A stretch of DNA of 64,000 nucleotides from Mytilus galloprovincialis (taxonomy: Eukaryota > Mollusca > Bivalvia > Mytilida > Mytilidae), in NCBI RefSeq assembly GCF_965363235.1, contig NC_134850.1, positions 37,816,602 through 37,880,601 of the forward strand, written 5' to 3'. The notes under the pieces were generated by a model that worked only from the letters and a program-made list of their open reading frames with translations, was not told where the DNA came from and did no database searches. A program made the position numbers and the translations under genes. Of this stretch, positions 394 through 59,552 are shown piece after piece (position 1 is the stretch's first letter; each line of letters opens with the position of its first letter).

Positions 394-1189
394 TCCATAC
401 GTATAACACTATTCAAATATAGTTTCTTGAGTACTCCTACCAATAAAAGTGAAAATAATAAAATTACTGAATGAACAGAAAAACAAAAACATATCTCCAA
501 AAGAACACTATGATGTCGGTTTGCAATATCACATATTGATGTTAAGGGATCTCTGAAACTCAAGTAAAAACTGATGTTTTTTTTACTAATATTATAATCA
601 TAATAAACATGAATATGAATGTATATTAGTTTTCAATATCATGCATTATTGTTTGCAGGCTATAAAAATCTTTCAAAATGTTGGGTCCTCCATGCTTTTC
701 AAGTGCATACTCTACTACTCTGTAATGATTTTTTTTCAGTCAATTTAAGTGTACTAAGTGTATTTTAAATATAATAATATCCGTTTTTGTTAAAATTATA
801 TAGTAATTATCAATTCTAGTTCTGAGTTTTGATTAAACAAAAGCTACAGATTATTATTTTTACAAGGTCTTATTTAAAAGAAATCAAAACTTGTATCAGT
901 TGATTACATGTATGTATTAAAAGTACAACCAACTATAAATACTTTTTTTTTATGTTCTTCATATTCATTGAAAACTTACCCCAATCAAATTCATAGAGAG
1001 ATATTTCAAAAACAAAATTTTCGATCCCAACAATTAATTTTTCATCGCATGGATCCAGCTTTAGGATAACATTAAATGAATGATGAACTATGTCAACATC
1101 TATGCAACAGTCAACTTCTGTACATGAAGATAGTAAGACACATGCCATTCCTGGGTGAAGTTCAGGAAGTTCTGTTGTTACATGGCAAT
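394..1189 (-). CDS. Cassette R19, partial (A and B only; continues beyond the left edge)
   Basis: Exons are A 1189-980 and B 436-394. A starts [11 protein letters not shown], has [11 protein letters not shown] and DPC, and ends DWG at G|GTAAGT. B reads [14 protein letters not shown] between a TTGGTAG acceptor and GA|GTAAGT, again exactly 43 nt, which supports a real exon despite its small size. No C exon (expected motifs LPKPxCDW, SVC) is visible in positions 1-393, so the next exon lies beyond the window. The intron would be at least 393 bp, normal for this gene. Confidence 0.8.
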
Positions 1190-4100
1190 CTGAAAACAAG
1201 ATACAAAATAATGTGAAAACAAAATAATTTAATATGACAATAAACGATATCTTAAAGACCCACAAATACATATCGAAACTAAATACTCTTTTGAATACCT
1301 TTTTTTCTATTTTTGCTTTTATTTGTAGACTTCACTAACTTTCCATTTTGTTGGTGTTTTTATATGCAAGAAGATCTTAGTATGACATAATCACAAGGAC
1401 ATATACTCATGTTATTTTTCTACTGGCAAAAGTTCATATCGTTCATTTATCAAAATTGTTTTATACAAAATCTACAATTTTCCCACAGTCATAAACAGTA
1501 ATCTTATAGTACTCTTCTACCTCTTTTCCAACCAAGGTTTTCTGGTTGATAAAACATTCCGTTTCTGACACATGAAGGAATCTTGAAGAACTTAGATATC
1601 CCAAGGTCACTTGAAACTTGTTTAATTGCTAGATCTGTAAGGTTTGTTAAATCTTCTCCTCTTGCACTTGTCCAATCTTCTAAGGAAAAATCTGTAAAAA
1701 AATCAAGAATCATCTAGTTTAGCTTCCAAATGCTGAAGATTTCTCTGATTTCATCACTAACTTTCTTCTTAAAAATCAGGAACTGCAATTCTAAGAAAAT
1801 ACATCTATCAGATAGAAGAAGAACGCTAATGTTAATTATCGCTATTTTTTGCATTTTTCCTTTGATTTTTTTTTTTAATTTTTCACATCATGGTACTTGC
1901 TTGAGATGGAAAATTATCGCTAGAAACTAAGCATGCACACAGTGTTGTTAACGAAATTGACATGAAATTGACAACATAGTGATAGGTAAAATAGCGATAA
2001 ACAGATTATCATTGGTCATCTCAACTCGATTGCCTTCTTCGCTTTTGCCGTCCCGGCTCAAGCTAGAATCAATTTCGTTGAGATGATCAACGATAATCTA
2101 TAATTATTAAAGATTAAAGAGTGTGAACAATTATCGGTTTACTCAGTGGTACTGATCAAGAATGAACTTATGTTGACACACTTCAAGATGAAGACTTTAT
2201 CACATGAATTTTACATTTATAAAAATGATGTAATGGTCAGATGAAATCAGAAAGATGGATGTGTTACAACTTGCAGTCATGCCATTCACCGAATGTTTTG
2301 ACCTTTTTGCTGTTGGTATCTGAAAAACAGATTTCAATACCACTAAAACTTCATGTTGACCAATGGATCATGAAACTAGGTTAAACACAGATTGACAAGT
2401 AAAATTTATTTTGCTATTGTTAGATGAATGATTAATGTATGTGCTTCATATTTTTTTATCCCCACAAATTAACCTTACATTATATGTAATTTTACTGTTC
2501 ATCATGGAAACAACAAAGATGTTTACCTATTATATTGTTTTACAACTTGTTCTACTCACTTTGAATTCTATATCCTTGATTCCAGTCACAAGATGGTTTA
2601 GGTAGACTGATTTTGTCTGCTATAAGTTGTGTGATCATACAATGGGGTTCTGAGGACTCAAAGCATATACCAAGACTAAGAGATAATATAAATTCTGAAG
2701 CTGATAGCTCATCAACAGTATACCTGCAAAACATGACCAGTTTCTGTACATTAAAACAAACATATACAAACATCTACTAAATGAATGTAAATAAATTGAG
2801 ATTATCAAATGGCTATTTCAATATTATTCCATTGGCTCTGCACCCTTGTCTGGAAATTTGATTTTTGGAGTAAAAAAAAAAAAACTGAAATTGAACATGA
2901 CTTTATTCAGAATATGTCAGTTTTTTGATACCTGTGAACTGAATTATTCTATGATTATTTTGTATTGTGGTCAGACTATATGATTGCAGAGAAGATCAAA
3001 ACAGACTTGGCATTTGGTTGGCTAGCAGTACTTGAAATGGATATTAGATTTAGCAGTATTATAGTTTCTTGGTCAAAATATTTCACTATTTATCTCTTTT
3101 TTTAACATCTTTTAAATATAAGTCACTATACAAAAGATAATTGGAAAGCTTAGTACAGTGCTACCAACTTGACCTCTATACTCAATGTACAGTTTTATCT
3201 TGTAACTTAAAGTCAGATTTTGATTTTCAGTATAAAAACCAACTTACTCAATGAAGAAAATTCCTTTCAAATAAAACTGATGATGAGTCCCTAAAATACA
3301 AAAAAAAAATATGAATTACAACATTATCACATCACTAATAAACCTTGCATAAAACATTCAAAAAGTATCCTCATCATTTTTGTGGCATTCCTCAACAGCT
3401 TTTGTAAAATTAAAGAATACAATAAAATGATTTTGTTCCATCACTTTATTATCAACCAAACATATACATGCTTGAACTTCCAGTGTTCAAAGTATCCAAT
3501 TAATCTAATGTTATCAGTTTCCTAGACAATATGAATAAAAAAAACTCTGTACAAGACAATAAAGTTGATTAACTGAACAAACTTTTACGTCCTTTGGTAT
3601 TTGATGAAGACTTGTCTCATTGGCAATTATATCACATACTGTATCTTCTTATTTTCATATAGTATGGCATTTTTTCTGTTTCTTCAATTTCAAAACTTAA
3701 GAAATTCTTTATATATTATAATAATTTCTTACCATAGACATAATTCACAAGTGATTCATTGTAGACAAATCTCTCTATACGAATGGTTAATTGGAAGTTG
3801 CATGCATCAAGTTCAAAAGAGAAATCAAATGACATTCCGAGAGACAATACTTCCACACAACACTTTATTCCTGTACATGTATCCATGATAATACATGTAG
3901 TCTCCCCACTGTTAAGGTATGGAAGTGTCACATAGCTAGAACATTCTGTAAAAAAAAAACTTTAAGCAATTTTTAAACTTTAAAAACTTGAAAAATAATA
4001 CTTTTAATTTTAGCTAAAAGGAATTAAGAAACAACGTTATGTTTAAAGAAGATATCATCTCCTATTGCACATATAAACTTCAGTTAAAACACCACTTTTC

Positions 4101-7100
4101 ATTCAATGAAATTTTTACTTAATCTGTAGCAAATATTGATCATATTCAAAAGAATCTAAACTTCAACATTCTACATTTGTTATTAGCCATTTTCTTTTTA
4201 CTAGTAAATATCTTTTGATAAAAGAAATGAAATAAAAGTCATGTCTAATTAACCTCTTATCCAGCCATCATTGGTTGGTCCCCATGGTTCTGTTGATCTA
4301 TCACAAGAATATTCACTCAAAAAAGACAATGCATCAAGCTCCTCAAGGATCTGGTACAGCATGTACTCCTGTAACTCATCTGTCCTAGTGATATTTCTAT
4401 CTGACATCCACTTCGTCAACGAAAAATCTTAAAAAAGAAAAGTTAAATTTTTAATAGCAAATATGTAAATGCTATGTTCTTTTCATATATGATGAACAAA
4501 CACAATAAAAGCTAAATCTGCTGAACTTTCATGTAAAAAAAATAAAAATAACAATTATTTTTTTAGAAAATTGACCATCAGTGAAATAGAGCATTGTACA
4601 AATGGGACAACATCCCTAATGCACCTCGAAATGAGGAACTCAAAAGTCACGTGTAAAGAAAAAATCTGTGGTGTAGTGATATTGGACATGTTTTTATTTT
4701 TTACAAATGACTGAACTTAACCATTTGTGGTGATTAGGAAAGTAGAGGAACATAGAATAAATGTGTAATAAACTGTTGGGACCAAAACTCCCAAAATCAA
4801 ACCCAACCTTCCTTTTATGGTCATAAACCTTGTGTTTAAATTTCATAGATTTCTATTTACTTATACTAAAGTTATTGTGCGAAAACCAAGAATAATGCTT
4901 ATTTTGGCCCCTTATTCCTAAACTGTTGGAACCAAAACTCCCAAAATCAATCCCACCTTCCTTTTGTGGTCATAAACCTTGTGTCAAAATTTCATAGATT
5001 TCTATTTACTTAAACTAAAGTTATAGTGCGAAAACCAAGAAAATGCTTATTTGGGCTCTTTTTGGCCCCTAATTCCTAAAATGTTGGGACCAAAACTCCC
5101 AAAATCAATCCCACCTTCCTTTTGTGGTCATAAACCTTGTGTTAAAATTTCATAGATTTCTATTTACTTTTACTAAAGTTAGAGTGCGAAAACTAAAAGT
5201 ATTCGGACGACGACGACGAAGTAGACAACGACGCCAACATAATACCAATATACGACCAAAAAATTTTCAATTTTTGCGGTCGTATAAAAACTATGGAGCT
5301 ATTAAATGTGTTCAAAGTATTAAATTTTCAAAGAACTTATTGTGTTAAAAAGGAGATATTTTACCACAAGGAGCTGCATCACAAAAGGATGTTCAGGGTA
5401 TGCTAATTTAAGGAAAAAGTAATCTCACTTTGTACCCCAAAAATTTAACCACATATGTGAAAATGTCACAGCTTCGAAATGAGCTATGATACATATCCAA
5501 GTTAACGATATGGACTGAGCTACAGGAAAAAAGGTTACCATTACTGCCTATGTGAAAACAATTAAAGATATTGACCCAAATGTATAGCCAATTACCAGCT
5601 CCAAACTAACTGAACCAAATTTATTGAAAAAGGGATATCTGTGTTTAAACCAAAACAGATTGTCACACAAATGGAATCCACACTGTGTGTTTCAAATTAA
5701 AAAAAAATATACATGAGTTGTTCAATTATCTTGTAATATTTTTATTTATTGTATGCAATAATCTTACCTTCTTCAACAAAATCTTCTGAATATTCACACT
5801 GTTGTTTTGGTAGCAAGGCATTGTTCAGAACATTCACTATATCATCCTCACAAGTACTGTTAGCATCAAAACAAACTGACACATTCATACTGACAATATA
5901 CATCTTGTCATCTGGCAAATCATCTATTGTAAAACTGTATAGCAAAATATTTAGAATAATCTATGATATCTAAATGCAACAAAATGATAATTCATTCTAT
6001 ATATAATTATTAACTGCAACAAGGACATATGTGTTTTTTCAAAAGGTCCAAAATGTTTAGTTTTTACTGACAACCATAATTTATATTACATTACATAATT
6101 CACAAGGAATATGACAATTAATGTAGTTAAAATTTCATCAAAATACAAGACACAAGCTACATTAAGTTTATAAAGATACAACAGGTCAGGTGATACAAGC
6201 TTAGTATATCTTTAAAAGGCTTTTAGTGAGATTTTTTTCTAATCAGAATACCTACTTCAAGTTTATGACTCCTAATAAAGATACTGCTAAAACTGTACCT
6301 GCAAAAATCAATTAATAATTGTATCATATGTAATGATTATGAAACATAGGATATCATTAATTTATAAAACAACTATTATTGTACATTACCTTATATATAA
6401 TTAAGATAAACTGCTGAAACAGAGATATGTCTCGTCTGTATGCATACAATTAAGATAAAAGACAATCTGATGAACAGCAACATTGTTTGACCATGAACTA
6501 TTTGGGAGGGCTTTGAAGTGGTCATCACACTGAGATTAACAGACAGTAATGTAAGAATATAGAAATTTTCATTGTCTATTGTAAGTAGTTCCTCTCAAAC
6601 TAACTAAAGCAAAAAACTGAACATTGAGAATTGGTAAATAATTGAAAGTCACTAGACCATGACCTACAGAGAGTTGAAATAAACAACAAACTAATATGTA
6701 TGAATATTAATGCAACTTTATAGAAAATATCATTCATCTATCATAAGCAGTCATTATTATCCATTTTTTCCATACCCCAACTATAGTCTTGCAGACTTCT
6801 GTTAAACTGCATCTGTTCAATACCAACTGTCAATCTATGATAACATGGACCAATGTCCAGGTAAATGTGGAATGATTTGTCCAGCAGCTCCACATTCATA
6901 CAGCAATCCACACGGGTACATGTATCAGACAGACTGCAAACAATGTTGTCTGGGAGTGGTAAGATCGAGCCGACTTTATGAGGGCATGCTGGAATAATAG
7001 TCGAGAATAGCATAACTCTAATCAGATATCTGTAACATGTAAACAATCTGTCATTTTTGTTTTTGATAGAGTTCATTGTGTAAAATAAGACATGGAAGGG

Positions 7101-52100: not shown

Positions 52101-55100
52101 ACAAATGCTTAAACAAGAATGTGTCCCCAGTACACAGATGCCCCACTCGCACTATCATTTTCTATGTTCAGTGGACCGTGAAATTGGGGTCAGAACTCTA
52201 ATATTGCATTAAAATTAGAAAGATCATATCATAAGGAACATGTATACTAAGTTTCAGGTTGATTGGACTTCCAACTTCAACAAAAACTACCTCCACCAAA
52301 AACAGACAGACGGTACAACAGTACGACGAACAGACGGACGAAAGGACGCACAGAACAGAAAACATAATGCCCCTCTACTATGGTAGGTGGGGCATAAAAA
52401 GATACCATACTTTATAATAGTATTGAAATAATATTACAATGTGTGATAATCAACCTTTTGTGAAGTATGAATCTGCTTCCCAGTCACAGAGAGGTTTAGG
52501 CATGACAGTATCCTGGAACACAATAACATCATACAAACAGGAACCAGACCACTCAAAACATACACTGAGATTCATGTTGACAACTAACTTCCTTTCCTCT
52601 TGTAGATCATCAATCTTGTATCTAAAATATTTGAGTAGACTTCTGAATAAATTTGAAATCGACAACAGAAACTGTAAATGAGTTAAAATGTTTGATATAC
52701 AATATTTTTACTACTTATGTGCTTTTAAACATATTGTTTTATATGTATGTACACATCATTTTGAAACTTGAAATTTTGAGTAATGATCATTAATAAACTG
52801 CATCAGTAGGATTCAAAAATTAATATTTATAATACAATACAAACAATAAACTGATCATGTATTTTTTTTTCAAAGAAATAGGCAGCTTAGGATTTTTATT
52901 GTGCTTTCTTGCTTTAATTCATTTTTCTTTATAACAATACATACGTTATTCTCAATACTCCTTTCAAATTGAAATGCTCTGTTTTACCTGATGAAAAATA
53001 ATAAAAAAAAGTTTTATATTACAGTGGCTGAATGAAAAAAAAAAATTGACATTAATAAATTTCAACAATGATAAAGTGGGGTTGCAAACTCAAAAAGTTA
53101 CCTAAAAGTTTCATTAAATGAAAATTCTGAAACTATTGCGTGCATTTATTACTGCTAATTTTGAAAAGTGAATAAAAATGTGTGTGTAATTAATGTGATC
53201 TCAGGACAATTTGTCTTCCATTAATTTCTAAAAAGACAGTATTTGTCTTCTGAAATTTTCAATCTCAACAGGATTCTTACTACAGGTTATTCCAAATAAT
53301 TGTTTTGAGACTATAATCACTTTAGAAAACTTACCAAATGTATAGTTCAACAAACTTATTGGATCTATTACAAGTTTTTCTATTCCTACTGTCATGACAT
53401 TGGTGCACGTGTTCACATCCAGGAAGGAATTAAATGATCTGTCCAGAAAATCTACATCAATACAACAATCCACGGAAGTACAGTGAGAGGGAATCATACA
53501 AGATATAGGACCAAGTAGTGGTGTCAAAGATACATCTAGTGAACATGCTGAAAAAGAAAAAATCGATCAATACAACCACAGTAGAGCTTTACTACTAATG
53601 TATTTCCTTAGGAAAACAAGAGTAGAACTATATTGCCTTTTTCATATAAAATATGATGATTCCATATCTTTGACTGAACGTCCTAACTTTTGGAAACTAA
53701 GCATGAATGATGTGTGCAGCATGCATAAATATAGTGCCACAAGCCTTACAAACAGTAAACAATGATGTTAAAGTACAACTGATAAATGTATGTGCCTGAA
53801 AGACAAAGGTCTTGCAATGCCAACAAAAGATAAACATTCTTGGAAAATTCGGAGAAAAATCTATCATTAAAATTAAGAATGAAAATGGGGAATGTGTTAG
53901 CTTATCTTATTACATTTAAAGAACTCAAGTGTGGGATATAGTTTTACCAAAATCCAAAACAATGACAATAATTCCTAATTCCAAACACTCCAACTTCACT
54001 GTTTTAAAATTAATATAAAATATTCAAATCTTTTTCACAGAAGATGATTTTCAATACTTACAATTCTTCCAACCATTTATAGCTGGACTGTACTTTGCAC
54101 CAGATCTCTGACATGATTCTTCATCTATAAGCCTACCAATACCAAGCACTTGAAATAACTGAATAATCATTATTTTTGACAGATGTTTTTCTGATGTAAC
54201 ATTAACTTCCTGAAGCCAGGTCTGTAGGGAAAATCCTGAAGAAAACAATCAGTATTTTTTTTATATATATGTTATTACTTACTCTCCTTAAAGATATGCA
54301 CATATACATTATGACCATATATTATACTGAGTAAAACACCCAGACTAATCATGAAATTTGATTGATAAGCTAGATTTGGGATATGAGCACACATCCCTTG
54401 TGAACAAACTTGAAGATCAGAAACATAGTTTACCGGTATGCTAAAATCAGGACATGCCAGCATAATACAATCGTTATTAGGGCTTCAGTTGGGATATCAT
54501 AAGTTACACAGTAATCTTGTGACCAAATTCAATATATACAGGGTTAGTAATACTGAGAGGTTGCAACTGTGTGCATATAAAAATTGAGAATAAAATTGCC
54601 ATGTATTTATATTATGCTATATAAATTGATGTTTGCTTGCTTAACATCCAGTGGCCATACTATATAAAGATTTAATAATTATGACATACTATACATAAAA
54701 CGTATCTTGTACCTGTTATGTCAAAATCTGTGTTGAAATCACATGGTATCTTTGGAAGAATTGTATTTGTCAATACTATCCATTGGAACATTTTCTCCCC
54801 TGGATTAAACTGCACACTGACATTTAGATCGACTCTGAACTCATTTGCATCTTCTGAATCATCCAAAGTGTAACTGAAATTGAATAATAAACTGTTATCA
54901 CAGAGATATGTCTTGCTTTTTTATAATTTCCATAATGCAAATTTTGAAATCAAAATAGCAACACTTTAACATGTAAGTTTTGCAAATATTCAAAGTCAAT
55001 GAACCATGACTGAAGGTACATGGCTAAAACATCTCTATAGAAATGAGATGTGCAAATGTAAACAAAGCAAAATTTCAAAGTCAATAAATCATATCTGAGG

Positions 55101-58100
55101 GGACAGGGTCAAATAATCACCATGGAAATGAGATGTGCCAATGCTAATACAACTGCATACCAAATATCATTGATCTACCACTAGCAGTTCCCCATAAACC
55201 CACCTAATCAAAAACTAATACATGAAAACTAGGCAAAAGTTTCAAAATCAATAGACCATGACTGAGGGGGTGTGGCCGAATAATTTCCATGGAAATGAGA
55301 TATGCCAATGATTATGCAACTTCAGACCAATTATCATTAACTTACCATTAGTGGTTCCCCATAAACTGACCTAATCACAAATTAATACTTGAAAACTAAG
55401 CAAAAATTTAAAAGTCAACAGATCTAGACCATAACTAAGGGGACAGGGTCAAATAATCTCCATGGAAATGAGATATACATTGTACTAATGCTTATACAAC
55501 TGCATACCAACTAACATTAACTTACCACTAGTGGTTCCTCATGAACTGACCCAATCACAAACTAGTACATAAAAAAATAAGTCCAGATACCATAACAGAG
55601 AGGGCGAGGCCAAATAATCTCCATGGTAATGAGATGTGCCAATACTAATACAACTTCATACCAAATATCTTTGACTTACCACCAGTGGTTCATTATAAAC
55701 TAGACCTAATCACAAACTAATATATTGTTGGCGCCGCTGACGCCGGAAACAGCATACCTATGTCTTGCTTTTTGACTCTGTCAAGCGAGACAAAAAAAAG
55801 TTCTAAAGACTATAATATTTTTGGAACAAAGTATTTGTTTATTTCAGAAAGTAATAAATACTGTCCTAATTGCATCACCTTCTTTCAGCAATTAGGACCC
55901 TTACTTAAATTGACACAAGACCAAACTTTTGCAATGATTATTTTTACATGCAAAATAGGACATGCTTACCATTCAGGATCCTGTTATCAACCAGGTTTTG
56001 ATAAGGAATTGTATTGTTCATGGTTTCAGTTGTTTGTGCTTTCTTTTTGATACATCTTAATTTGTACATCTGTACACCTGTCTTTGACTTGGTCACTTAT
56101 CCCCATGGATCACAATTTCCTTTTTTTTATATTTCTGTATAGTCAACTTTTCATATTTTTGAAATTTCATAGAAATAAAATATTACTTACTCTAAGTTTA
56201 AAGCTGATCCTAGTTTTAATGTGTCTTTAACACCTGTAAAAAAACAAGAATCTGAAATATTTGTCACACATTTTTTTTCAAAATTACAGTTCTATTTCTA
56301 AGACATCACTTTCTGACAATATCAACTTATAACTTATTTAATGAAATACAGTTCTCATTTTATACTTGTAAGAGTAGACTGCATTTTATATCTCTATTAA
56401 TATTTTAAGAATTTTGGTAGGATATGGATGCATTATTTCATCTTACAGCTTATATCTATGGGAAGATGAATTTTTACAAATAAGGAGCTAAAAAAATTGT
56501 GTACATATACAGAGGAATAATGTTGAACTTAATATTTTGAAAATGACTCTCACTGTAGGGTTTTCTTCCTTGTATGCAACACACCTTTTACTTGTGGCGA
56601 AAAATCTTGGCAAACGTCATTTCCACAACTGATGGAGTTTTAAAGTATTACCAGAGTGGATAGGATTTTTGTAATAATGCACAGGGATGTCTAAGTTAAA
56701 CTAAATTTTTAATTAATGATTTTCTCTGTAGTGTCTTCCTCCTTGTATGTGACATATCTTCTAGTAGAAGTGAATAATTCCGTCAAGTTTCATTACCCAA
56801 CTCTATGCTTTTTAGCCGATAGGGACCTAAAACAATTTGTGACAGACAAGTTGATTACAATACGCCTTGTTCTGATTAATCAGGTGAGCCCTAACAAAAC
56901 TTTGGTATAATAAAACTTACCCCACTGGAAGTTAAGTAATGAATATTCAAATTTCAGCTTTTCAATCATAAAAATAATGTTTCTATTGCAATAATCAATA
57001 TCCATCTGAACATGAAAATTTCTCTTCAGAAAGTCCACATTAAAGCAGCAATCAACAGTTGTACAACTCTTCATGAGTTTGCAAGAAATAAGTCCTGATA
57101 ATTGCGGTAACTGTACAGAATGGGGACACTCTGAAAAAAACCCAATATTCTTAAAATAGTTTTTAGCATTGCAAATTGTTTTTATCTCAAGTTATAATTG
57201 ACCAACCCTTAACATCATATGCAAACTAAAAAGTGTAAACAATCATCTATAAAACATTTGTTCATAACACATGTTTTATATATTATTTCCAGGTTCCAAT
57301 ATAAAAAAAAAAAAATTTATCATCAAAACAGAAGCACTTAAGATAAGTAAGAGTTGTGAGTTGGTCACATAAAAATAATTAGATGTCTTTCTCAAACCTA
57401 GAAGCAGTACTTGTTTTTAATTAATAATATGAAAAAATTATATTTTCAAAAGGTCATATTAGAAAAGTAACATAGTGATGGTACATTTGTAAGTGCATGT
57501 AAATACAAAAGATTGCTCTGACAAGATTAAGCTAAAAAAAATAATGAAACAAAAAAAAATTATGAAAACATTTAACTGAATCCAAAATTATGTTTTCTTC
57601 TTACCATTCACCCAGGTGCTTCCTCCCACCACACACTGTGGACTTTGTAGATTATCTGTTATACCCAAACAGTTCATGATCTGAGTTATGACAATGTCAT
57701 TTAGATTGTCACTGATGGACAGTCCTTTGTTACCAAGGAAACTGCTCACAGAAAATCCTGTAACATAAAATGTCTTCATTGCAGATGTGATACAGAAATT
57801 TGTATTACTGACAAATCATTTGTATAAGAATTTATCATGTGGGAAAATTCTGGCAAATTCTATATTTTTTCAACTTTCTCATAAAAAACAAGACTATCAA
57901 ATATAATTTCATTGTGAATTTCATTCATGTGTGGATGCTAACAGCCAGACAACGAACTGTTTAAACAAAAAAACTCTCCATAGGATCCTGATTTATTCAT
58001 GCATTTTTGTTTTTTATTTGGTCGGGTTGTTGTCTCTTTGACACATTCCCCATTTCCATTCTCAATTTTATTTTTAAAAACAGTTTATTAAGAACATATG

Positions 58101-59552
58101 TAATATATAGATCTGTGCTTTTTTATACCTGATGAACTGGAGCTATATTTACAGAAGGTCTTTGGTAGATACACGTCTTGAAGAACAATTTGCTGTATCA
58201 AACATTCATTGCTTTCCAGGCATACACTCACATTCATATTCACAAGGAAAACATCATCATCAAGAAGATTGTAGATTGAATAGCTGTTAGGAAAAAAATC
58301 GTTTTTAAAACAGATTTAAAACTTCTTTCAATGGAATTGTTTTCATTGAAGATTTCTTGAATATTTAAGATACAAGATTCTTACTGAAACTTTTTAAATT
58401 ATCTGAGTTATCACCTCTTTAACATAACTTTTTTTATTTCTTCTAAAAACAGATTTAAAACTACTTACAATGGAATTGTTTTCATTGCAGCTTTCTTATT
58501 TCAATTAAGATACAAGATTCTAACTGAAACATTTTCAGATTTTCTGAGTTATCTCCCCTTTTAAAAAACATTTCTCTTTAGTTTCATTTTAAACATTTTA
58601 CAGAAATTCAAAATGAAATACTTTTATAGTCAAATAATGGTTCTGACTGTATGTTTTGTATGTGAAGAATAAGACATCAATTAGCAGAATGTCAGATAAA
58701 GCAAATCAATCTTAATAGGTTGAAAAGTAGAGTTACAAGACATCACTTACGTGATAGTGAATAGTGATGTTAACTTGAACTGTTCTACAATACCTACAAT
58801 CATATACATTTAAATAATATATTATATCCCTTTTTTGGTAACAGCATACAGTAAATAACTAGACACTCTGAAGAGCCTCTCACCTTGGTCTTCAACAATG
58901 TGGACTAGATTAAAATTCATGACAACTATTTTATTTTTTTTCGTTGATCTTGTACTGCTGATAAAAAAAATTCTGTTTAATGTTATCTTCAGTTTTTAAA
59001 GGTAATCACTCCGATAAAAAAAAACTATCTAGGTAAATAGTACTTATTTGCTGATCTTGTCTCGTCTACGTTTATTATTTTTTCTTATAAATCAAAAAGT
59101 TTTCTAGCATCAACTTTATCCGATCATTCAAAATTATGCATTATTAGACCAACATTCATATTTCCTGGGCAACACGATAACCCATTTGGGGATCAGGAAA
59201 AACATGAGGGACGAAAAAGCCACTTCTTTGCCATGTTCACCTCCTAGAGCACGCTATGATGCAAAGATGTCAGCTTAAAAACATATAAAAATACTTTTTT
59301 CTTCTGCAAAAACAATATCTAGCAATCAAAATAAATAATTACCAAATTCATAATCAAACAAGGAAATATCTATTTCATATTTTTCAATTCCTATTCTCAG
59401 TCTGTAAGAACAGGCATCAAGGAATATAAACACATGGAATGATCTTTTTATAGGATCCACGTCTATACAACATTCCACCCCTGTACAGATATCTGATATG
59501 TGGCAAGTCATTTGTCCTGTCAATGGCTGAATATCTACAGATTTATCACAAG
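394..59552 (-). CDS. Giant tandem-cassette gene, cysteine-rich, 64 exons resolved, incomplete at both ends
   Basis: I see 64 exons in 19 tandem cassettes (R1 at the right to R19 at the left), each coding segments A, B, C and D. Every junction has GT/AG borders, and exon lengths agree with fixed phases: A alone 210-213 nt (1-1), B 43 nt (1-2), fused A+B 253-259 nt (1-2), C 155-170 nt (2-1), D 147-180 nt (1-1). The coding total is 10,804 nt, about 3,600 residues. A full cassette normally carries ten cysteines: six in A, three in C, one in D. Alternating hydrophobic residues in A, B and C suggest beta strands, and D looks helical; both are inferences. N-linked sequons are common. No signal peptide, start or stop codon lies in view, and there is no transmembrane segment in the exons. 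I do not recognise the family. I have an unverified impression that similar uncharacterised proteins exist in other bivalves. Likely secreted; function unknown. Confidence 0.88.
1521..3945 (-). CDS. Cassette R18 (A, B, C, D)
   Basis: Exons are A 3945-3733, B 3290-3248, C 2723-2560 and D 1691-1521. A starts [11 protein letters not shown], has [11 protein letters not shown] and DAC, and ends VYG at G|GTAAGA. B reads [14 protein letters not shown] and ends GA|GTAAGT. C has [17 protein letters not shown] and PSCDW and ends IQS at A|GTGAGT. D has [16 protein letters not shown] and LGWKRG, with donor G|GTAGAA. The C-D intron holds an inverted copy of the hairpin MITE also seen in R15. Ten cysteines. 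Confidence 0.85.
1833..2106 (-). mobile_element. Hairpin MITE, copy 1 (family H1)
   Basis: This copy of about 275 bp lies in the R18 C-D intron. It matches the element at 12465-12744 in reverse orientation, including 'taattatcgctatttt' at one end and 'gataatctataattat' at the other. The inner arms (tcatctcaactcgattg and caatttcgttgagatga) form a hairpin of about 30 bp with a short loop. There is no coding sequence. The family is not one I can name. Confidence 0.7.
4254..6988 (-). CDS. Cassette R17 (A, B, C, D)
   Basis: Exons are A 6988-6776, B 6298-6256, C 5934-5768 and D 4427-4254. A has [11 protein letters not shown] and GPC and ends SWG at G|GTATGG. B reads [14 protein letters not shown], with donor AA|GTAGGT. 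C has the NVS sequon next to [10 protein letters not shown], and its third cysteine is in QQCEYS, so CDW is lost but the cysteine kept. D is typical ([25 protein letters not shown]), but its donor G|GTTAAT is a poor match to consensus. The C-D intron has a three-copy repeat element (4771-5291). Ten cysteines. Confidence 0.84.
4771..5291 (+). repeat. Dispersed element with three tandem units of about 150 bp
   Basis: Three units begin with a variant of 'ctgttgggaccaaaactccc' at about 4772, 4921 and 5079. Each continues through 'ggtcataaaccttgtgt' and 'aaagttatagtgcgaaaacc'. The block ends with a GAC-rich stretch and 'gcggtcgtataaaaa'. I remember this repeat type from mollusc sequence; that is recall, not a search. 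It fills the R17 C-D intron. Confidence 0.7.
7301..7506. mobile_element. Palindromic MITE, decayed copy (family H2)
   Basis: The right arm reads 'aaaattggtattgacacaaataaatgaatccacagta' in two adjoining parts, and the left arm is a degraded inverted match around 'tcatgataacttggggtacc'. Better copies lie at 16373-16585 and 26409/30311-30512. It is non-coding and sits in the R17 A to R16 D intron. Confidence 0.5.
7532..11687 (-). CDS. Cassette R16 (A, B, C, D)
   Basis: Exons are A 11687-11478, B 10829-10787, C 8980-8817 and D 7708-7532. A has [11 protein letters not shown] and DSC and ends DW at A|GTAAGT; joined to B, the split codon is A|AA (lysine). B reads [14 protein letters not shown], one of the cleanest B exons. 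C reads [20 protein letters not shown] and ends KPG at CCA G|GTATTT. D is typical ([22 protein letters not shown]) and ends AAT T|GTAAGG. The 1.8 kb B-C intron holds a pogo-like element and the 1.1 kb C-D intron an array-bearing element whose end lies about 12 bp from the C donor. Ten cysteines. Confidence 0.86.
7881..8804 (+). mobile_element. Array-bearing element with terminal 'aaccggatt' inverted repeats
   Basis: It starts 'acaagaggctgtcacaacga' with 'aaccggattt' nearby and ends 'aaaatccggtta', an inverted match. In between are about five tandem copies of a 155-165 bp unit marked by 'ctttcaagaaccataactcc' (about 8103, 8263, 8423, 8576, with an older one near 7945). A C-rich stretch near 8727-8760 precedes the end. 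It lies in the R16 C-D intron, ending about 12 bp from the C exon donor. Confidence 0.7.
9146..10675. mobile_element. Pogo/Tigger-like non-autonomous DNA transposon, 1.5 kb
   Basis: The ends are inverted repeats: 'cagtcgattccacttaattg' at the left, and at the right the complement of 'cagtacattccggttatttg'. Both are flanked by TA, the target duplicated by Tc1/mariner and pogo elements. Near the ends, short repeats of 'ttaattgcata' recur, typical of Tigger-like termini. I see no transposase frame. A second element (9835-10000) is nested inside. It occupies most of the R16 B-C intron. Confidence 0.7.
9835..10000. mobile_element. Short GC-rich TIR element nested in the pogo-like element
   Basis: Ends 'ggcggatttag' and the complement of 'ggcggatccag' form inverted repeats around a body that is strikingly GC-rich (runs of g and c) against an AT-rich background. 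The internal stretch 'agggaatcactgaagcgtga' recurs in decayed form at 30855-30955. The type is familiar to me from bivalve sequence, by recall only. Confidence 0.7.
10950..11262 (+). repeat. Dispersed mussel repeat M1, longest copy class
   Basis: It begins 'taaccctgccccattcgg', passes through 'caggagcctgttattcagtg', 'ccttttatagctgact' and 'tatagttgttaatttctgtg', and ends 'gtctcatttgcaatatcttc' followed by a T-rich tail. It lies in the R16 A-B intron, antisense to the gene. The family has at least ten other copies in this window. Confidence 0.75.
12031..13438 (-). CDS. Cassette R15 (fused A+B, C, D): isolated fused copy among split ones
   Basis: Exons are A+B 13438-13186 (253 nt), C 12909-12746 (164 nt) and D 12186-12031 (156 nt). 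A and B form one exon ([17 protein letters not shown], ending AA|GTTAGT), although both neighbours R14 and R16 have the A-B intron. C is typical ([21 protein letters not shown]) and ends IPS at A|GTAATT; the donor from its third base on belongs to a hairpin MITE. D is short and lacks [16 protein letters not shown], then DNRLLSG. This is the most compact cassette, about 1.4 kb. Ten cysteines. Confidence 0.85.
12465..12744 (+). mobile_element. Hairpin MITE, copy 2 (family H1), ending at a splice donor
   Basis: This copy of about 280 bp matches 1833-2106 in the opposite orientation. Inner arms at about 12474-12500 and 12541-12570 pair as a hairpin. Its right end, on the minus strand TAATTATCGC, follows the G of the GT donor of the R15 C exon directly, so the donor from its second base on coincides with element sequence. 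Confidence 0.7.
13997..17061 (-). CDS. Cassette R14 (A, B, C, D): lacks one cysteine in A and one in C
   Basis: Exons are A 17061-16849, B 15941-15899, C 15202-15039 and D 14152-13997. A and B are separate again. In A the first five cysteines are kept ([13 protein letters not shown]), but the DPC position reads LNQDLQLL, so the sixth is missing; no other A in the gene lacks it. B reads [14 protein letters not shown] and ends AG|GTATGT. C keeps [10 protein letters not shown] but has KQPRNLQ where CDW normally stands, so the third cysteine is missing; no other C lacks it. D is short (156 nt) with FSNECDNS and ends SWNSG. Eight cysteines remain, an even number. The paired absence within one cassette is informative about disulfide pairing. 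Confidence 0.85.
16145..16300 (+). repeat. Dispersed mussel repeat M1, partial copy
   Basis: It runs from 'agccttttatagctgact' to 'ttgccaatcataccacatct' and a T-rich tail, with good similarity to 10950-11262 but without the 5' part. It lies in the R14 A-B intron, antisense to the gene. Confidence 0.75.
16373..16585. mobile_element. Palindromic MITE, best copy (family H2)
   Basis: The ends 'agtgtggattcattaata' and 'aaataaatgaatccacagta' are inverted repeats that extend inward (gataccaattttcatgga against tccaccaaaattggtatcc). There is no coding content. It lies in the R14 A-B intron, next to an M1 copy. Confidence 0.7.
17546..20849 (-). CDS. Cassette R13 (fused A+B, C, D)
   Basis: Exons are A+B 20849-20597 (253 nt), C 20007-19844 (164 nt) and D 17713-17546 (168 nt). 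A+B starts [12 protein letters not shown], has [11 protein letters not shown] and DSC, and ends GMARLK at AA|GTATGT. C starts after an ATTAAAG acceptor, has [10 protein letters not shown] and VCKLD instead of CDW, and ends G|GTAAGA. D is typical ([17 protein letters not shown]). The 2.1 kb C-D intron contains a mussel repeat copy (19653-19795) and a 'gtaggtggggcat' element (18757-19221). It is the last of nine consecutive cassettes with fused A+B. Ten cysteines. Confidence 0.86.
17714..18756. other. Intron sequence of R13, no gene recognised
   Basis: This AT-rich sequence follows exon D of R13 and precedes the element at 18757. I see short open frames only, with no motif of the cassette and no clear repeat boundary. 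Confidence 0.5.
18757..19221 (+). repeat. Dispersed repeat M2 with a (GGAC)n stretch
   Basis: It starts 'aacaagaatatgtccaaag', contains 'cggatgccccactc', two partly duplicated inner segments ('gtactaagtttcaagttgat' near 18888 and 19056) and a GGAC-rich run near 19148, and ends 'cgtaggtggggcataaaaa'. 'Tgccccac' and 'gtggggca' form short inverted ends. It lies in the R13 C-D intron. Confidence 0.75.
19653..19795 (+). repeat. Dispersed mussel repeat M1, partial copy
   Basis: It runs from 'agggccttttatagcctac' to 'aatcataccacatcatctta'. It ends about 48 bp from the donor of the R13 C exon and is antisense to the gene. Confidence 0.7.
20391..20553. mobile_element. Palindromic MITE, decayed copy (family H2)
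   Basis: The right end 'aaaataaatgaatctacagt' with 'ttcaaaaattggtaca' matches the H2 terminus, and the left side 'cttattcatgggtaccaat' is the inverted match. It lies in the R13 D-side part of the AB-C intron, close to the A+B exon. Confidence 0.5.
20941..21372 (+). repeat. Dispersed repeat M3 (ttgattgattg ... gttgcttaacgtccagtgg)
   Basis: It begins with a TTGA tandem stretch, then 'gttgcttaacgtccagtgg' and a stretch of about 400 bp that is more GC-rich than its surroundings ('acttcggcaagcgttttac', 'tcagtcacccttggggtttt'). An open frame through it (21131-21442) is probably chance. A short related fragment is at 54629-54656. It lies in the R12 D to R13 A intron. The family is recalled from bivalves, not named. 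Confidence 0.6.
21967..23492 (-). CDS. Cassette R12 (fused A+B, C, D)
   Basis: Exons are A+B 23492-23237 (256 nt), C 22475-22306 (170 nt) and D 22131-21967 (165 nt). This is one of the most compact cassettes, about 1.5 kb. A+B has [11 protein letters not shown] and DPC, then [17 protein letters not shown], ending GA|GTATGT. C has two extra residues between its first cysteines ([12 protein letters not shown]) and a good KCDW; it ends ISS at A|GTAAGT. D is typical ([17 protein letters not shown]). Ten cysteines. I see no large recognisable repeat in its introns. Confidence 0.87.
24190..30780 (-). CDS. Cassette R11 (fused A+B, C, D), AB-C intron enlarged to 4.4 kb
   Basis: Exons are A+B 30780-30528 (253 nt), C 26158-25995 (164 nt) and D 24336-24190 (147 nt). 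A+B starts [11 protein letters not shown], has [11 protein letters not shown] and DPC, and ends FVGLE at GA|GTAAGT. C is typical ([20 protein letters not shown], ending DPS at A|GTAAGT). D is the shortest in the gene: [21 protein letters not shown], with the spacer between the cysteine and GW reduced. The 4.37 kb AB-C intron holds a 3.9 kb long-TIR element inside a MITE; the 1.66 kb C-D intron holds an element flanked by TTAA. Ten cysteines; the reading frame looks intact despite the insertions. Confidence 0.85.
24679..25917. mobile_element. Non-autonomous element flanked by TTAA, 1.2 kb (piggyBac-like)
   Basis: The left end reads 'tttaaggaggtacataaca' and the right end 'ggtaccaccttaa', inverted repeats each bordered by TTAA, the target of piggyBac-type elements. 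The interior holds 'cgtacgcccaccaagctgta' and poly-T stretches but no transposase frame. It fills the R11 C-D intron. Confidence 0.6.
26409..26424. mobile_element. Left remnant of an H2 palindromic MITE split by the 3.9 kb element
   Basis: The sequence 'actgtggatttatttt' matches the terminus of the MITE at 16373 (read from its right end) and ends where the long-TIR element begins. The remainder is at 30311-30512. Confidence 0.5.
28343..28628 (+). mobile_element. tRNA-derived SINE
   Basis: A box-like sequence (tggtgtagaggttagtgc, about 28349) and a near-perfect B box (ggttcgtttcc, 28394-28404) are spaced as in a tRNA gene. A non-tRNA body follows, with 'ggctgacccgtgttaagag' and 'gctacaaggcagcactcgca'. 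It cannot be a functional tRNA because the acceptor arms do not pair. It is nested in the 3.9 kb element. Confidence 0.7.
28640..28895 (+). repeat. Dispersed repeat M4 (ggtgtcacttgtgg ... gatgtccctttgata)
   Basis: The stretch includes 'gatctgcctacccttcggga', 'cctggctttgtcagttcg' and 'gagtttgatgtccctttg', which I recall as a common bivalve repeat. A short frame through it encodes nothing recognisable. It directly follows the SINE. Confidence 0.55.
30311..30512. mobile_element. Right part of the H2 palindromic MITE split by the 3.9 kb element
   Basis: It starts 'atttatattagtgggtatta' and ends 'aataatcatgaatctatagt'; the two halves pair as an inverted repeat (gggtattaattctcatgg against aagaaaattggtaccc). 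Its missing terminus is at 26409-26424. It ends about 15 bp from the R11 A+B donor. Confidence 0.6.
30855..30955 (+). repeat. Decayed fragment of the GC-rich TIR element seen at 9835
   Basis: 'Tgggaaaaaattgtttgatt', 'agggaatcattgaagaatga' and 'ttaggtttatagtcagtg' align with the body of 9835-10000, with the GC-rich ends lost. It lies in the R10 D to R11 A intron. Confidence 0.55.
31090..33291 (-). CDS. Cassette R10 (fused A+B, C, D)
   Basis: Exons are A+B 33291-33036 (256 nt), C 32437-32277 (161 nt) and D 31266-31090 (177 nt). A+B starts [11 protein letters not shown] without the LPxLP motif, has [11 protein letters not shown] and DIC, and ends LFDLR at AG|GTAGAT. C has [10 protein letters not shown] and ICHM in place of CDW, like R8. 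D begins [13 protein letters not shown] and ends GWSKG, with one cysteine (SQCDP). The C-D intron has a copy of the mussel repeat (31785-31892), and the AB-C intron a 208 bp MITE (32574-32781). Ten cysteines. Confidence 0.86.
31785..31892 (+). repeat. Dispersed mussel repeat M1, partial copy in the R10 C-D intron
   Basis: 'Tttgaaggccatacagttgc' to 'tctcattggcaatcatacca' and a T-rich tail. It is one of five consecutive cassettes with M1 in this same intron. Confidence 0.65.
32574..32781. mobile_element. MITE family H3, copy 1
   Basis: The ends 'tactgtaaattcagtaaa' and 'aaatttctgaattcacag' are inverted repeats about 208 bp apart. The centre ('aatatgcgacagagttg'-type and 'aaatattttatatgaattaa') matches 45201-45410 closely. 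Non-coding, in the R10 AB-C intron. Confidence 0.7.
34083..34642. mobile_element. Non-autonomous element flanked by TTAA, 560 bp
   Basis: The left end 'attaagggggttcgcggg' and right end 'ccctcgagcctccttaa' are inverted repeats bordered by TTAA. 'Ggtcaccgat' occurs twice inside (about 34186 and 34386). There is no gene. It ends 22 bp from the donor of the R9 D exon. Confidence 0.6.
34665..36398 (-). CDS. Cassette R9 (fused A+B, C, D)
   Basis: Exons are A+B 36398-36140 (259 nt), C 35685-35525 (161 nt) and D 34829-34665 (165 nt). A+B reads [10 protein letters not shown]..., then [11 protein letters not shown] and DPC, through [12 protein letters not shown] to LKIK at AA|GTAAGA. C has [10 protein letters not shown] and VCNW and ends FKIQ at G|GTTAGT. 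A copy of the mussel repeat begins right after this donor sequence, so GTTAGT lies at the edge of the repeat. D is typical ([22 protein letters not shown]). An element flanked by TTAA (34083-34642) ends 22 bp from the D donor. Ten cysteines. Confidence 0.86.
35222..35518 (+). repeat. Dispersed mussel repeat M1 abutting the R9 C-exon donor
   Basis: From 'aaccccaccacattctgtat' through 'tgccttttatagctgaca' to 'aatcatacaacatcttcttt' and a T tail. The tail stops about 5 bp from the GTTAGT donor of the C exon (exon edge 35525). Confidence 0.75.
36780..39509 (-). CDS. Cassette R8 (fused A+B, C, D)
   Basis: Exons are A+B 39509-39257 (253 nt), C 38881-38718 (164 nt) and D 36959-36780 (180 nt). A+B starts ECATNVTLP, carries [11 protein letters not shown] and DPC, and ends VIEVR at AG|GTATGT. 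C is divergent in its second half: [10 protein letters not shown], then VHCHM in place of CDW, but all three cysteines are kept. D begins DWSISTWY instead of DFSL and has KEC and GWSTG. The C-D intron is expanded to about 1.76 kb by a 1.2 kb element (36992-38226) and a copy of the mussel repeat that ends 14 bp from the C donor. Confidence 0.85.
36992..38226. mobile_element. Dispersed 1.2 kb element M5 (agaggctcttaagagcctg ... gggccaggtgagcta)
   Basis: The left end 'agaggctcttaagagcctgt' followed by 'cgctcacct' and the right end 'gggccaggtgagcta' give short inverted termini (ctcacct/aggtgag). The interior is a direct duplication of about 500 bp: 'gggcaataactccttaaggg' occurs near 37245 and 37752, and 'gggcagataga/gggcagatac' near 37463 and 37908. 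A fragment of the left end recurs at 58868. I recall it from bivalve genomes. It lies in the R8 C-D intron. Confidence 0.7.
38468..38702 (+). repeat. Dispersed mussel repeat M1, diverged copy in the R8 C-D intron
   Basis: 'Gccttttatagctgtcttta' to 'tccttggcaatcatacagta', interrupted by an unrelated stretch of about 60 bp (38541-38625). It ends about 14 bp from the C exon donor. Confidence 0.65.
39966..40115 (+). repeat. Dispersed mussel repeat M1, decayed copy in the R7-R8 intron
   Basis: 'Ggatatgggttttgctttaa' with 'gttgaaggctgaaggcagct' and 'gtctcatatgcaatcatacc'. Same orientation as the other copies. Confidence 0.6.
40259..42254 (-). CDS. Cassette R7 (fused A+B, C, D)
   Basis: Exons are A+B 42254-42002 (253 nt), C 41630-41467 (164 nt) and D 40438-40259 (180 nt). 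A+B runs from ACSENISLP to MIRLE, ending GA|GTAAGT, with [11 protein letters not shown] and DAC cysteines. C reads FKIEEI...[10 protein letters not shown]...QPCSW and ends IPG at G|GTCAGC. D starts [13 protein letters not shown], has PTC, and ends HGWNSG. Ten cysteines. A decayed copy of the mussel repeat (41293-41425) ends about 40 bp from the C donor, and an array-bearing element (40518-40993) sits in the same C-D intron. Confidence 0.86.
40518..40993 (+). mobile_element. Array-bearing element M6, short copy
   Basis: It starts 'aacaagtgaaactgcgagct', then 'gatacccccgccgcaagtgg', two units of about 170 bp ('gtgttcggtaaacaggaagt'), a GGAC-rich run, and ends 'aaagcgggggtataa'. The ends 'atacccccgc' and 'gcgggggtat' are inverted repeats. 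A longer copy is at 62178-63027. It lies in the R7 C-D intron. Confidence 0.75.
41293..41425 (+). repeat. Dispersed mussel repeat M1, decayed copy in the R7 C-D intron
   Basis: 'Gtttggatttttctcatttt', 'tgaaggctgaatacttgcct' and 'catctcattggcaatcatat'. It ends about 40 bp from the C donor. Confidence 0.6.
42643..44591 (-). CDS. Cassette R6 (fused A+B, C, D)
   Basis: Exons are A+B 44591-44333 (259 nt), C 43771-43617 (155 nt) and D 42813-42643 (171 nt). A+B is two residues longer than R5 ([10 protein letters not shown] start) and ends LLKIK at AA|GTAAGT. C has SLCLESSGC, with one fewer residue between the cysteines, and LCDF instead of CDW. Its donor is either G|GTAAAG at 43617 or, six bases on, G|GTGATT at 43611. 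Both keep phase 1; I chose the first by comparison with other C exons. D is typical ([18 protein letters not shown]). All ten cysteines are present. A copy of the dispersed mussel repeat lies in the C-D intron (43092-43258), as in R7-R10. Confidence 0.86.
43092..43258 (+). repeat. Dispersed mussel repeat M1, decayed copy in the R6 C-D intron
   Basis: 'Gggcccttaatagtcatata', 'gtataggatcttctcatcat' and 'gtctaattggcaatcatatc' match the M1 backbone with many changes. Same orientation. Confidence 0.6.
44072..44218 (+). repeat. Dispersed mussel repeat M1, decayed copy in the R6 AB-C intron
   Basis: 'Tgcgccttttaaggctgac', 'acagtatgggttttttctca' and 'ttgtctcatagcaattattc'. Same orientation, different intron from the R6-R10 set. 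Confidence 0.6.
45201..45410. mobile_element. MITE family H3, copy 2
   Basis: The ends 'tactttaaattcagaaatta' and 'taatttctgaatttacagta' are inverted repeats. The centre is nearly the same as in 32574-32781. Non-coding, in the R5 D to R6 A intron. A short related fragment is at 53118-53160. Confidence 0.7.
45562..47113 (-). CDS. Cassette R5 (fused A+B, C, D)
   Basis: Exons are A+B 47113-46861 (253 nt), C 46410-46241 (170 nt) and D 45738-45562 (177 nt). Here A and B are one exon: the [15 protein letters not shown] stretch is read straight through, ending AA|GTAAGT, with no intron at the usual TGG G position. A has [11 protein letters not shown] and DPC cysteines. C is one of the longest, with two extra residues ([11 protein letters not shown]), and ends PLCNW...IPG at CCA G|GTGTGG. 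D starts [10 protein letters not shown], has PQC, and ends GWNISNG. All ten cysteines are present. The intron before this cassette contains a 1 kb TIR element (47183-48177). Confidence 0.87.
47183..48177. mobile_element. TIR element, 1 kb, in the R4-R5 intron
   Basis: The left end 'atacctgtcaactgaccc' and right end 'cacaggttgacaggtat' are inverted repeats (at least 12 bp exact), and inner 'tgacctgagat' occurs near both ends (about 47216 and 48110). Similar 'gtctgact' words lie on both outer sides. The small open frames inside look accidental. The type is unknown to me. Confidence 0.6.
48482..50530 (-). CDS. Cassette R4 (A, B, C, D): last split A/B before the fused block
   Basis: Exons are A 50530-50321, B 49820-49778, C 49093-48933 and D 48652-48482. 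A has [13 protein letters not shown] and DVC cysteines; its donor is G|GTATAT. B reads [14 protein letters not shown] and ends GA|GTAAGT. C is typical ([22 protein letters not shown]) with the sequon NIS just before its first cysteine. D begins DVSLTSLF and keeps its single cysteine (SSCTRT), but its C-terminal part lacks NGW and ends SKHNSLTN at A|GTGAGT. The exon length (171 nt) is normal, so the motif has drifted rather than been truncated. All ten cysteines are kept. Confidence 0.84.
49208..49505 (+). repeat. Dispersed repeat M2, copy 2
   Basis: 'Aacaagaatgtgtccatcgt' through 'cggatgccccactcgcctta', a GAAC/GGAC-rich run and 'cgtaggtggggcatat'. It lies in the R4 B-C intron, in the same orientation as the copies at 18757 and 52111. 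Confidence 0.75.
51403..53547 (-). CDS. Cassette R3 (A, B, C, D)
   Basis: Exons are A 53547-53335, B 52987-52945, C 52621-52455 and D 51567-51403. A has [11 protein letters not shown] and NTC cysteines and ends TFG|GTAAGT. B reads [14 protein letters not shown] and ends AC|GTATGT. C is typical: [22 protein letters not shown]. It contains the sequon NLS next to its first cysteine, and its donor is G|GTTGAT. D starts DFSLEKFL and ends DGWIKG, with one cysteine (DSCGLE). All ten cysteines are present. The C-D intron contains a copy of the 'gtaggtggggcat' dispersed element (52111-52400). Confidence 0.87.
52111..52400 (+). repeat. Dispersed repeat M2, copy 3
   Basis: 'Aacaagaatgtgtccccagt' through 'gatgccccactcgcactatc' to 'ggtaggtggggcataaaaa'. 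It lies in the R3 C-D intron, ending about 55 bp from the C exon. Confidence 0.75.
54062..57130 (-). CDS. Cassette R2 (A, B, C, D): C module lacks its first two cysteines
   Basis: Exons are A 57130-56921, B 56233-56191, C 54873-54713 and D 54235-54062. A is complete ([14 protein letters not shown]) and ends at QWG|GTAAGT. B reads [14 protein letters not shown]. The C exon is in frame and well spliced, but the usual SVC...C pair is replaced by [11 protein letters not shown], so both cysteines are missing while the third (IPCDF) stays. D is typical, with GFSLQTW, ESC and NGW. It ends AAT T|GTAAGT, so the codon split with R3 is T|CA (serine). The B-C intron is long (about 1.3 kb) and holds a tandem-repeat element (54907-55796). 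Eight cysteines remain, still an even number. Confidence 0.85.
54907..55796 (+). repeat. Dispersed element M7 with tandem units of 155-175 bp
   Basis: Units are marked by 'ccatgactgaggggacaggg'-like words near 55010, 55085, 55255, 55429 and 55585, with 'ccatggaaatgagatgtgcc' and 'ccactagtggttcccc' recurring. It closes with 'gttggcgccgctgacgccgg' and 'tatgtcttgctttttgactc', the latter resembling its start (tatgtcttgcttttttata). It is in the R2 B-C intron. Confidence 0.65.
57605..59552 (-). CDS. Cassette R1 (A, B, C, D): most upstream cassette visible
   Basis: Exons in sense order are A 59552-59343, B 58793-58751, C 58283-58129 and D 57757-57605. A starts after a TTTTACAG acceptor and carries all six cysteines ([15 protein letters not shown]). 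Its donor, G|GTAATT, is weaker than most. B reads [14 protein letters not shown] and ends AC|GTAAGT. C has the SVCLES and NEC cysteines, but its third cysteine lies in FCKY rather than CDW, and the exon is short (155 nt) with a serine run at its end. D begins GFS instead of DFS and ends STWVNG, so the usual NGW is changed. A begins in phase 1, so an upstream exon must end with one base of a split codon. I find no such exon up to 64000, so this is the first recognisable cassette but not the first exon. Confidence 0.85.
58868..58935 (+). repeat. Fragment of dispersed element M5
   Basis: 'Ctctgaagagcctctcacct' and 'atgtggactagatt' resemble the left end of the element at 36992. The rest is not recognisable. 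It lies in the R1 A-B intron. Confidence 0.45.

Follow-up and report, generated by a model that had tools for sequence, protein, structure and literature searches.

Fibrillin and the hemicentin-like matrix giants are composed of tens of disulfide-rich modules encoded by phase-1 symmetric repeats, and the crustacean clotting protein forms clots. PMC1783640 places clotting protein in the Vtg/CP family of the large lipid transfer proteins (LLTPs), and together with PMC10799875 it provides the LLTP definitions used here. LLTPs are known lipid binders (PMC10799875), and immune roles of vitellogenin are reported in PMC7949091. The window analyzed in this study is a stretch of 64,000 nucleotides from Mytilus galloprovincialis (NC_134850.1, positions 37,816,602 to 37,880,601; genomic coordinates on this contig are given with the prefix C13). 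Its features suggest that it covers the middle of a single functional gene, an interpretation that we hold jointly with the explanation as a whole and with the same moderate confidence.

Six-frame segments and self-comparison yielded one alignment for each exon kind, and profile scans combined with splice rules located 64 minus-strand exons in the window, neither more nor fewer, from 59552 down to 394. They comprise 19 A, 9 separate B, 18 C and 18 D exons, and 10 more B parts are fused to A. This recovers exactly the 64 exons with one phase pattern that a first-pass annotation had read from the letters, and its figure of at least 19 cassettes is true as a lower bound for the whole array. The summed length of the 64 exons corresponds to about 3,600 codons.

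All exons below are minus-strand intervals of the splice model, listed in descending order. The separate A exons are located at 59343..59552 (unit 8 of 34, from the profile scan and splice rules), 56921..57130, 53335..53547, 50321..50530, 16849..17061, 11478..11687, 6776..6988, 3733..3945 and 980..1189. The fused A+B exons occupy 46861..47113, 44333..44591, 42002..42254, 39257..39509, 36140..36398, 33036..33291, 30528..30780, 23237..23492, 20597..20849 and 13186..13438. Separate B exons are found at 58751..58793 (an identical peptide occurs in the paralogue L003), 56191..56233, 52945..52987, 49778..49820, 15899..15941, 10787..10829, 6256..6298, 3248..3290 and 394..436; the C exon belonging to the last of these lies beyond the window, at C13:37816309-37816472. 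The C exons are at 58129..58283 (weak donor), 54713..54873 (alternative donor), 52455..52621 (3′ end at 52455 or 52488), 48933..49093, 46241..46410, 43611..43771, 41467..41630, 38718..38881, 35525..35685, 32277..32437, 25995..26158, 22306..22475, 19844..20007, 15039..15202, 12746..12909, 8817..8980, 5768..5934 and 2560..2723. The D exons are at 57605..57757, 54062..54235, 51403..51567, 48482..48652, 45562..45738, 42643..42813, 40259..40438, 36780..36959, 34665..34829, 31090..31266, 24190..24336, 21967..22131, 17546..17713, 13997..14152, 12031..12186, 7532..7708, 4254..4427 and 1521..1691.

The A/B, C/D and D/A junctions are in phase 1 and the B/C junction is in phase 2. As first modelled, the phases agreed in 62 of the 63 adjacent exon pairs; the 63rd, involving a C exon modelled at 54690-54873, comes into phase with an alternative in-frame donor at 54713. 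All 64 exons are open and bordered by AG and GT, and the 3′ ends of three inspected C exons depend on weak donors. Profile matches within the array reach E 2e-34. The divergent D exon at 12031..12186 has a profile E of only 0.35 and is placed by the profile scan, the gene finder and the splice model. As a control, the A, C and D profiles were applied to a 264 kb region, in which the plus strand gave two matches, both to D (E 0.35 and 0.62), and the minus strand beyond the array gave two matches at chance level (E 0.32 and 0.16). A chance repeat was rejected by this strand control, because the plus strand contained chance-level matches only. Rfam and tRNA scans of the window returned no matches.

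The array extends beyond both ends of the window. As a whole, it contains 34 A units between about 37,918.7 and 37,770 kb on C13 (~148 kb), with 7 A units upstream and 8 downstream of the window. In total, 123 exons were modelled for the array: 34 each of A and C, 30 D, 23 B, and two exons in D positions that resemble SAP. Together they amount to about 6,560 codons. This figure counts five of the 23 B exons that score below 8; all five lie outside the window and are not trusted. The two D-slot exons before the first two A units matched SAP (PF02037) with E values of 0.1 (12.7 bits) and 0.0047 (17.0 bits), both below the Pfam cut-off of 23.9; a single ordinary D exon, when scanned, had no match.

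A small gene finder, for which 73 array exons served as the training set, proposed exons on the same strand beyond the array. Its exon chain includes false exons in retroelement and repeat stretches, and outside the array the exons between the anchor exons are predictions of this gene finder. The gene spans 209 kb between its anchor exons, a length that would grow to about 250 kb with the predicted 3′ exons, should these be part of it. Predicted exons continue to the edge of the examined DNA, at a distance of about 250 kb from the start exon, and the gene end lies beyond. A hydrophobic candidate start exon is located at C13:37973659-37973747. A basic stretch, RKKRRRR, comes directly after the last modelled C exon and is taken here to be a possible processing site, and downstream of the array there is a conserved beta-rich C-terminal exon and then a PAN domain. 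PAN_1 (PF00024) scored 27.5 bits against a cut-off of 21.4 in the predicted exon at C13:37750031-37750444, 3′ of the window, which appears to belong to the same gene as the array. The predicted 3′ part also contains repeats with GTTPGG, DPESGI and TPP motifs, which presumably resemble fibronectin-like modules; Pfam FN3 was not matched by any of the 3′ repeat segments that were scanned. In one joined segment, Peptidase M23 (PF01551) reached 17.9 bits (cut-off 28.7); two other joins did not match it. In this model, the protein of the window gene would have about 7,000 residues or more.

Tandem repeats and mobile elements occur in and around the gene. At C13:37809530-37810144 (L041 2919-3630), an 88-bp unit consisting of the 3′ part of an A exon and its donor is present in about 8 tandem copies, the first of them at that exon, which makes it an exon-derived minisatellite. 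A 123-bp unit encoding GTTPGG is repeated at least 46 times with 96 percent matches at C13:37720905-37726803 (L050 4316-10000), within the predicted 3′ part of the gene. In a paralogue on C2 (L025 61-1725), an A exon has grown into an open frame of 554 residues made up of repeated half-A units, which adds a third minisatellite of exonic origin. The window itself contains intronic and flanking tandem arrays with a period of 158-169 bp at 4769-5193, 7947-8708, 18790-19123, 40582-40899, 55056-55722 and 62242-62897. Retroelement-like open frames are located in introns of the gene at C13:37961880-37964962 and 37899267-37902319.

Cysteine accounts for 5.2 percent of the array. The loss of cysteines was examined in the modelled exons of the 34 units, in which the C exon of the last unit was read by hand and three units have no modelled D or SAP-like exon; no cysteine was lost alone. 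A-Cys6 and C-Cys3 are absent from the same two units, one of which is in the window (16849..17061 and 15039..15202). C-Cys1 and C-Cys2 are likewise absent from the same two units, including the C exon at 54713..54873, and a single unit is without both A-Cys2 and one of A-Cys4/5. By chance alone, the same two of 34 units would be picked once in 561 times, for either kind of pair. These joint losses suggest that A6-C3, C1-C2 and A2-A4/5 are the disulfide partners, and the paired losses between A and C exons suggest that A, B and C constitute one domain. The AlphaFold2 model of one AB exon (39257..39509) is nearly all beta (pLDDT 81.6), and that of one D exon (4254..4427) is mainly helical (pLDDT 79.0).

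The 19 A members gave no Pfam match over the gathering score; three families matched one member each, with a best E of 0.033. No Pfam family was found with C scanned as part of a spliced A-B-C join and of a segment of almost two units, or with one AB exon and one D exon (1 of 17 aligned D exons). The best PDB sequence matched the A profile with an E value of 0.1. Foldseek searches with the AB model gave best E values of 0.64 (PDB) and 0.32 (viral models), and the D model gave no matches. As far as tested, the A-B-C-D unit is new to the domain libraries searched. The first-pass annotation had stated that the unit matches no nameable domain, which holds for Pfam, PDB sequences and Foldseek to the extent tested; the profile search and structure prediction that it had proposed placed none of the tested parts in a well-described family, and the cysteine-rich, extracellular character that it had assigned to the repeat is supported. 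The scaffold, adhesive or gel role that it had suggested is a possible one.

The gene is a member of a family. We queried the genome (1.385 Gb, 331 contigs) with single exons: the start exon and the third anchor exon each had 17 matches, the HEAT-like exon had 18, one of which is a fragment adjoining another match, and the C-terminal beta-rich exon had 19, consisting of 17 strong matches and 2 weaker ones on C5. One A exon brought up 532 first-look candidates, of which 150 gave scored matches. All 17 of the 17 loci have the same succession on one strand, from the start exon through the HEAT exon, the third anchor and the A exons to the C-terminal exon, and 149 of the 150 scored A exons lie between the third anchor and the C-terminal exon. 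Because the anchors and A exons keep one order and strand at every locus, each locus can be interpreted as one gene. The single continuing gene that had been proposed for the window is thereby supported, and one transcript per locus is supported but not proven. The loci span 120 to 390 kb between anchors, about 3.3 Mb summed over the 17.

The exceptional A exon, at C7:9858654 (L007), is outside all 17 loci and on the opposite strand to the nearby C7 locus. Several paralogues, among the loci on C2, C5, C9 and C13 (41.2-42.8 Mb), are arranged as inverted pairs or clusters. A similarity of only 81-85 percent between pieces of one C2 pair (L021, L026) speaks against a haplotype artefact there, and two C7 stretches (L019, L020) are 97 percent alike. 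PCNA was considered for the third-anchor segment and rejected, because single chains gave E 0.39 or worse and the value of 1.7e-07 came from a triple-copy chain with 10-bit domains. Myticin-prepro (PF10690) exceeded its cut-off at 17 places in the genome and in none of 14 control genomes, as would be expected of a mytilid mussel. Among the titles listed by the literature search, whose coverage excludes most subscription journals, none dealt with the A-B-C-D family; the proteins of the family may well be listed elsewhere as uncharacterized.

For the 5′ part of the gene, a remote relationship to the N-terminal domain of vitellogenin/apolipophorin (a large lipid transfer protein) is supported, though short of proof. 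The HEAT exon family used in the comparison was read at 13 of the 17 loci (the window gene and 12 paralogues). In a profile-profile alignment with two C5 exons, it gave an E value of 7.4e-5 and a probability of 62 percent, with 41 percent identity over 39 columns. The exon of the C5 relative in turn matched Vitellogenin_N (PF01347) at positions 483-523 with an E value of 1e-4 (21.5 bits; cut-off 24). Vitellogenin_N was matched directly by three of the 13 HEAT-family exons, with a best E of 0.032, and the window gene's own HEAT exon had no family match at E 1. When this exon was aligned with the C5 exon, and also with a C3 exon found by PF01347, 0 of 2000 shuffles reached the score.

Other comparisons of the N-terminal region gave no signal. 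The first exons of the window gene against another C3 exon, at PF01347 positions 1-52, were equalled by 673 of 2000 shuffles, and a further C3 exon, at positions 534-589, by 404 of 2000. The joined N-terminal model of 540 residues did not match PF01347 and gave HEAT_2 at 20.2 bits (cut-off 27.7), and the start-exon segment had four unrelated weak matches, Vitellogenin_N not being among them. PDB searches with the joined N-terminus had a best E of 0.71, and those with the HEAT exon families had best values of 0.2 and 1.6. A PF01347 scan of the mussel's own genome listed none of the 17 loci, gave the C5 exons at E 0.34 and 0.92 only, and identified separate positive genes on C3 and C1. The two C5 loci hold Vitellogenin_N-like and C-terminal exons within 31 and 37 kb in a consistent order, and they look like compact relatives. 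The verdict of the first-pass annotation, that the family is not recognised, is correct for the unit and appears to need revision for the 5′ part of the gene.

A true large lipid transfer protein, used in transport or in provisioning eggs and with the array as a belt that binds or stores lipid, would be consistent with the Vitellogenin_N-like N-terminal exons, with the helical appearance, judged by eye in the gene model, of the predicted segments between the HEAT exon and the array, and with the lipid binding described for LLTPs in PMC10799875. DUF1943 and DUF1081 were, however, unmatched in the predicted segments scanned, whose exon models are incomplete, as was VWD in the 3′ segments scanned, which stop short of the gene end. 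The genome also has the separate PF01347-positive genes on C3 and C1, and an array with this cysteine content looks structural rather than lipid-binding. We consider this explanation unlikely.

The 17 diversified paralogues could also represent recognition or immune molecules with variable arrays that bind microbes, gametes or self ligands. Such a role would suit a multigene family with a PAN domain, the range of identity of the A units to the reference unit (27 to 42 percent), and the vitellogenin immune roles reported in PMC7949091. The substitution rates point in another direction. Ka/Ks was 0.10 to 0.19 for one A exon in six pairs among four C13 loci, and 0.11 to 0.13 for the HEAT exon of the window gene against three paralogues. 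Values of 0.10-0.19 in two exon kinds indicate purifying selection on the protein, that is, constraint rather than diversifying selection, and a recognition role is decidedly improbable in our estimation.

The modular units, which have phase 1 at both ends, could in principle yield short transcripts, and a cluster of many small secreted cysteine-rich genes with one or a few units each was therefore considered. This possibility was rejected on the anchor layout, because each array, at all 17 loci, has its N- and C-terminal anchors in single copy; the 64 exons of the window are, moreover, open and mutually in phase, and we regard separate small genes as very improbable. A decaying pseudogene array, which the minisatellite amplification of exon fragments in or beside exons and the retroelements in introns might suggest, was rejected because Ka/Ks is far below 1 and is hardly credible with all 64 exons open between AG and GT borders.

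Our preferred explanation, which we regard as somewhat probable, is that the locus is one giant secreted gene out of 17 paralogues, with an LLTP-like head, an A-D array and a role as a scaffold or gel. This confidence lies mostly in the anatomy; the functional part taken alone falls a little short of an even chance. The protein is probably secreted, a hydrophobic candidate start exon having been seen, and would begin with a remote version of the vitellogenin/apolipophorin N-terminal lipoprotein domain. The middle would consist of the 34 A copies with B, C and mostly D, and the end of the conserved beta-rich block, the PAN domain and the fibronectin-like repeats. Within each unit, A, B and C may form one beta-rich domain held by disulfides, with the A-Cys6/C-Cys3 bond reaching across exons, and D may be a short helical linker with one cysteine. 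The array could produce a long, protease-resistant rod, and the rod could act outside the cell, as a scaffold or as a gel former, in hemolymph, in mucus, or in the egg or shell coat. The lipid-transfer-like head might aid secretion, lipid loading or assembly. We suggest only tentatively, and with some doubt, that in mussel ancestry a chassis of the vitellogenin kind became 17 secreted giants that consist mainly of a beta-plus-helix unit new to the libraries and supply bulk extracellular material.

About 3.3 Mb of the genome of one common mussel is given to a protein type absent from the libraries searched, and the exons tested in the 17-gene family are under strong constraint. The A-B-C-D unit needs its own domain model. 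If the N-terminal link is true, the lipid-transfer superfamily extends into giant repeat proteins, and the family becomes a testable candidate for an extracellular material that mussels make in bulk.

The large lipid transfer proteins (vitellogenin, apolipophorin II/I, apoB and MTP) appear to share with the mussel family the signature LGNA...S...I...RA...ALR in the N-terminal exon region, which, by way of the C3 and C5 exons, aligns to approximately positions 480-525 of Vitellogenin_N. In contrast to them, the mussel family is without DUF1943, DUF1081 and VWD matches in the segments scanned and has instead the 34 A units (in the window gene), the PAN domain and the fibronectin-like repeats, distributed over 17 genes of 120-390 kb between anchors. 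The crustacean clotting protein is a precedent for an LLTP relative that acts as an extracellular structural polymer; it bears VWD and is not known to have an A-D array. The mussel array resembles fibrillin and the hemicentin-like giants in its modular, disulfide-rich and phase-1 symmetric construction, whereas its unit, unmatched by the Pfam modules tested, differs from theirs in being composed of four parts with a phase-2 internal intron.
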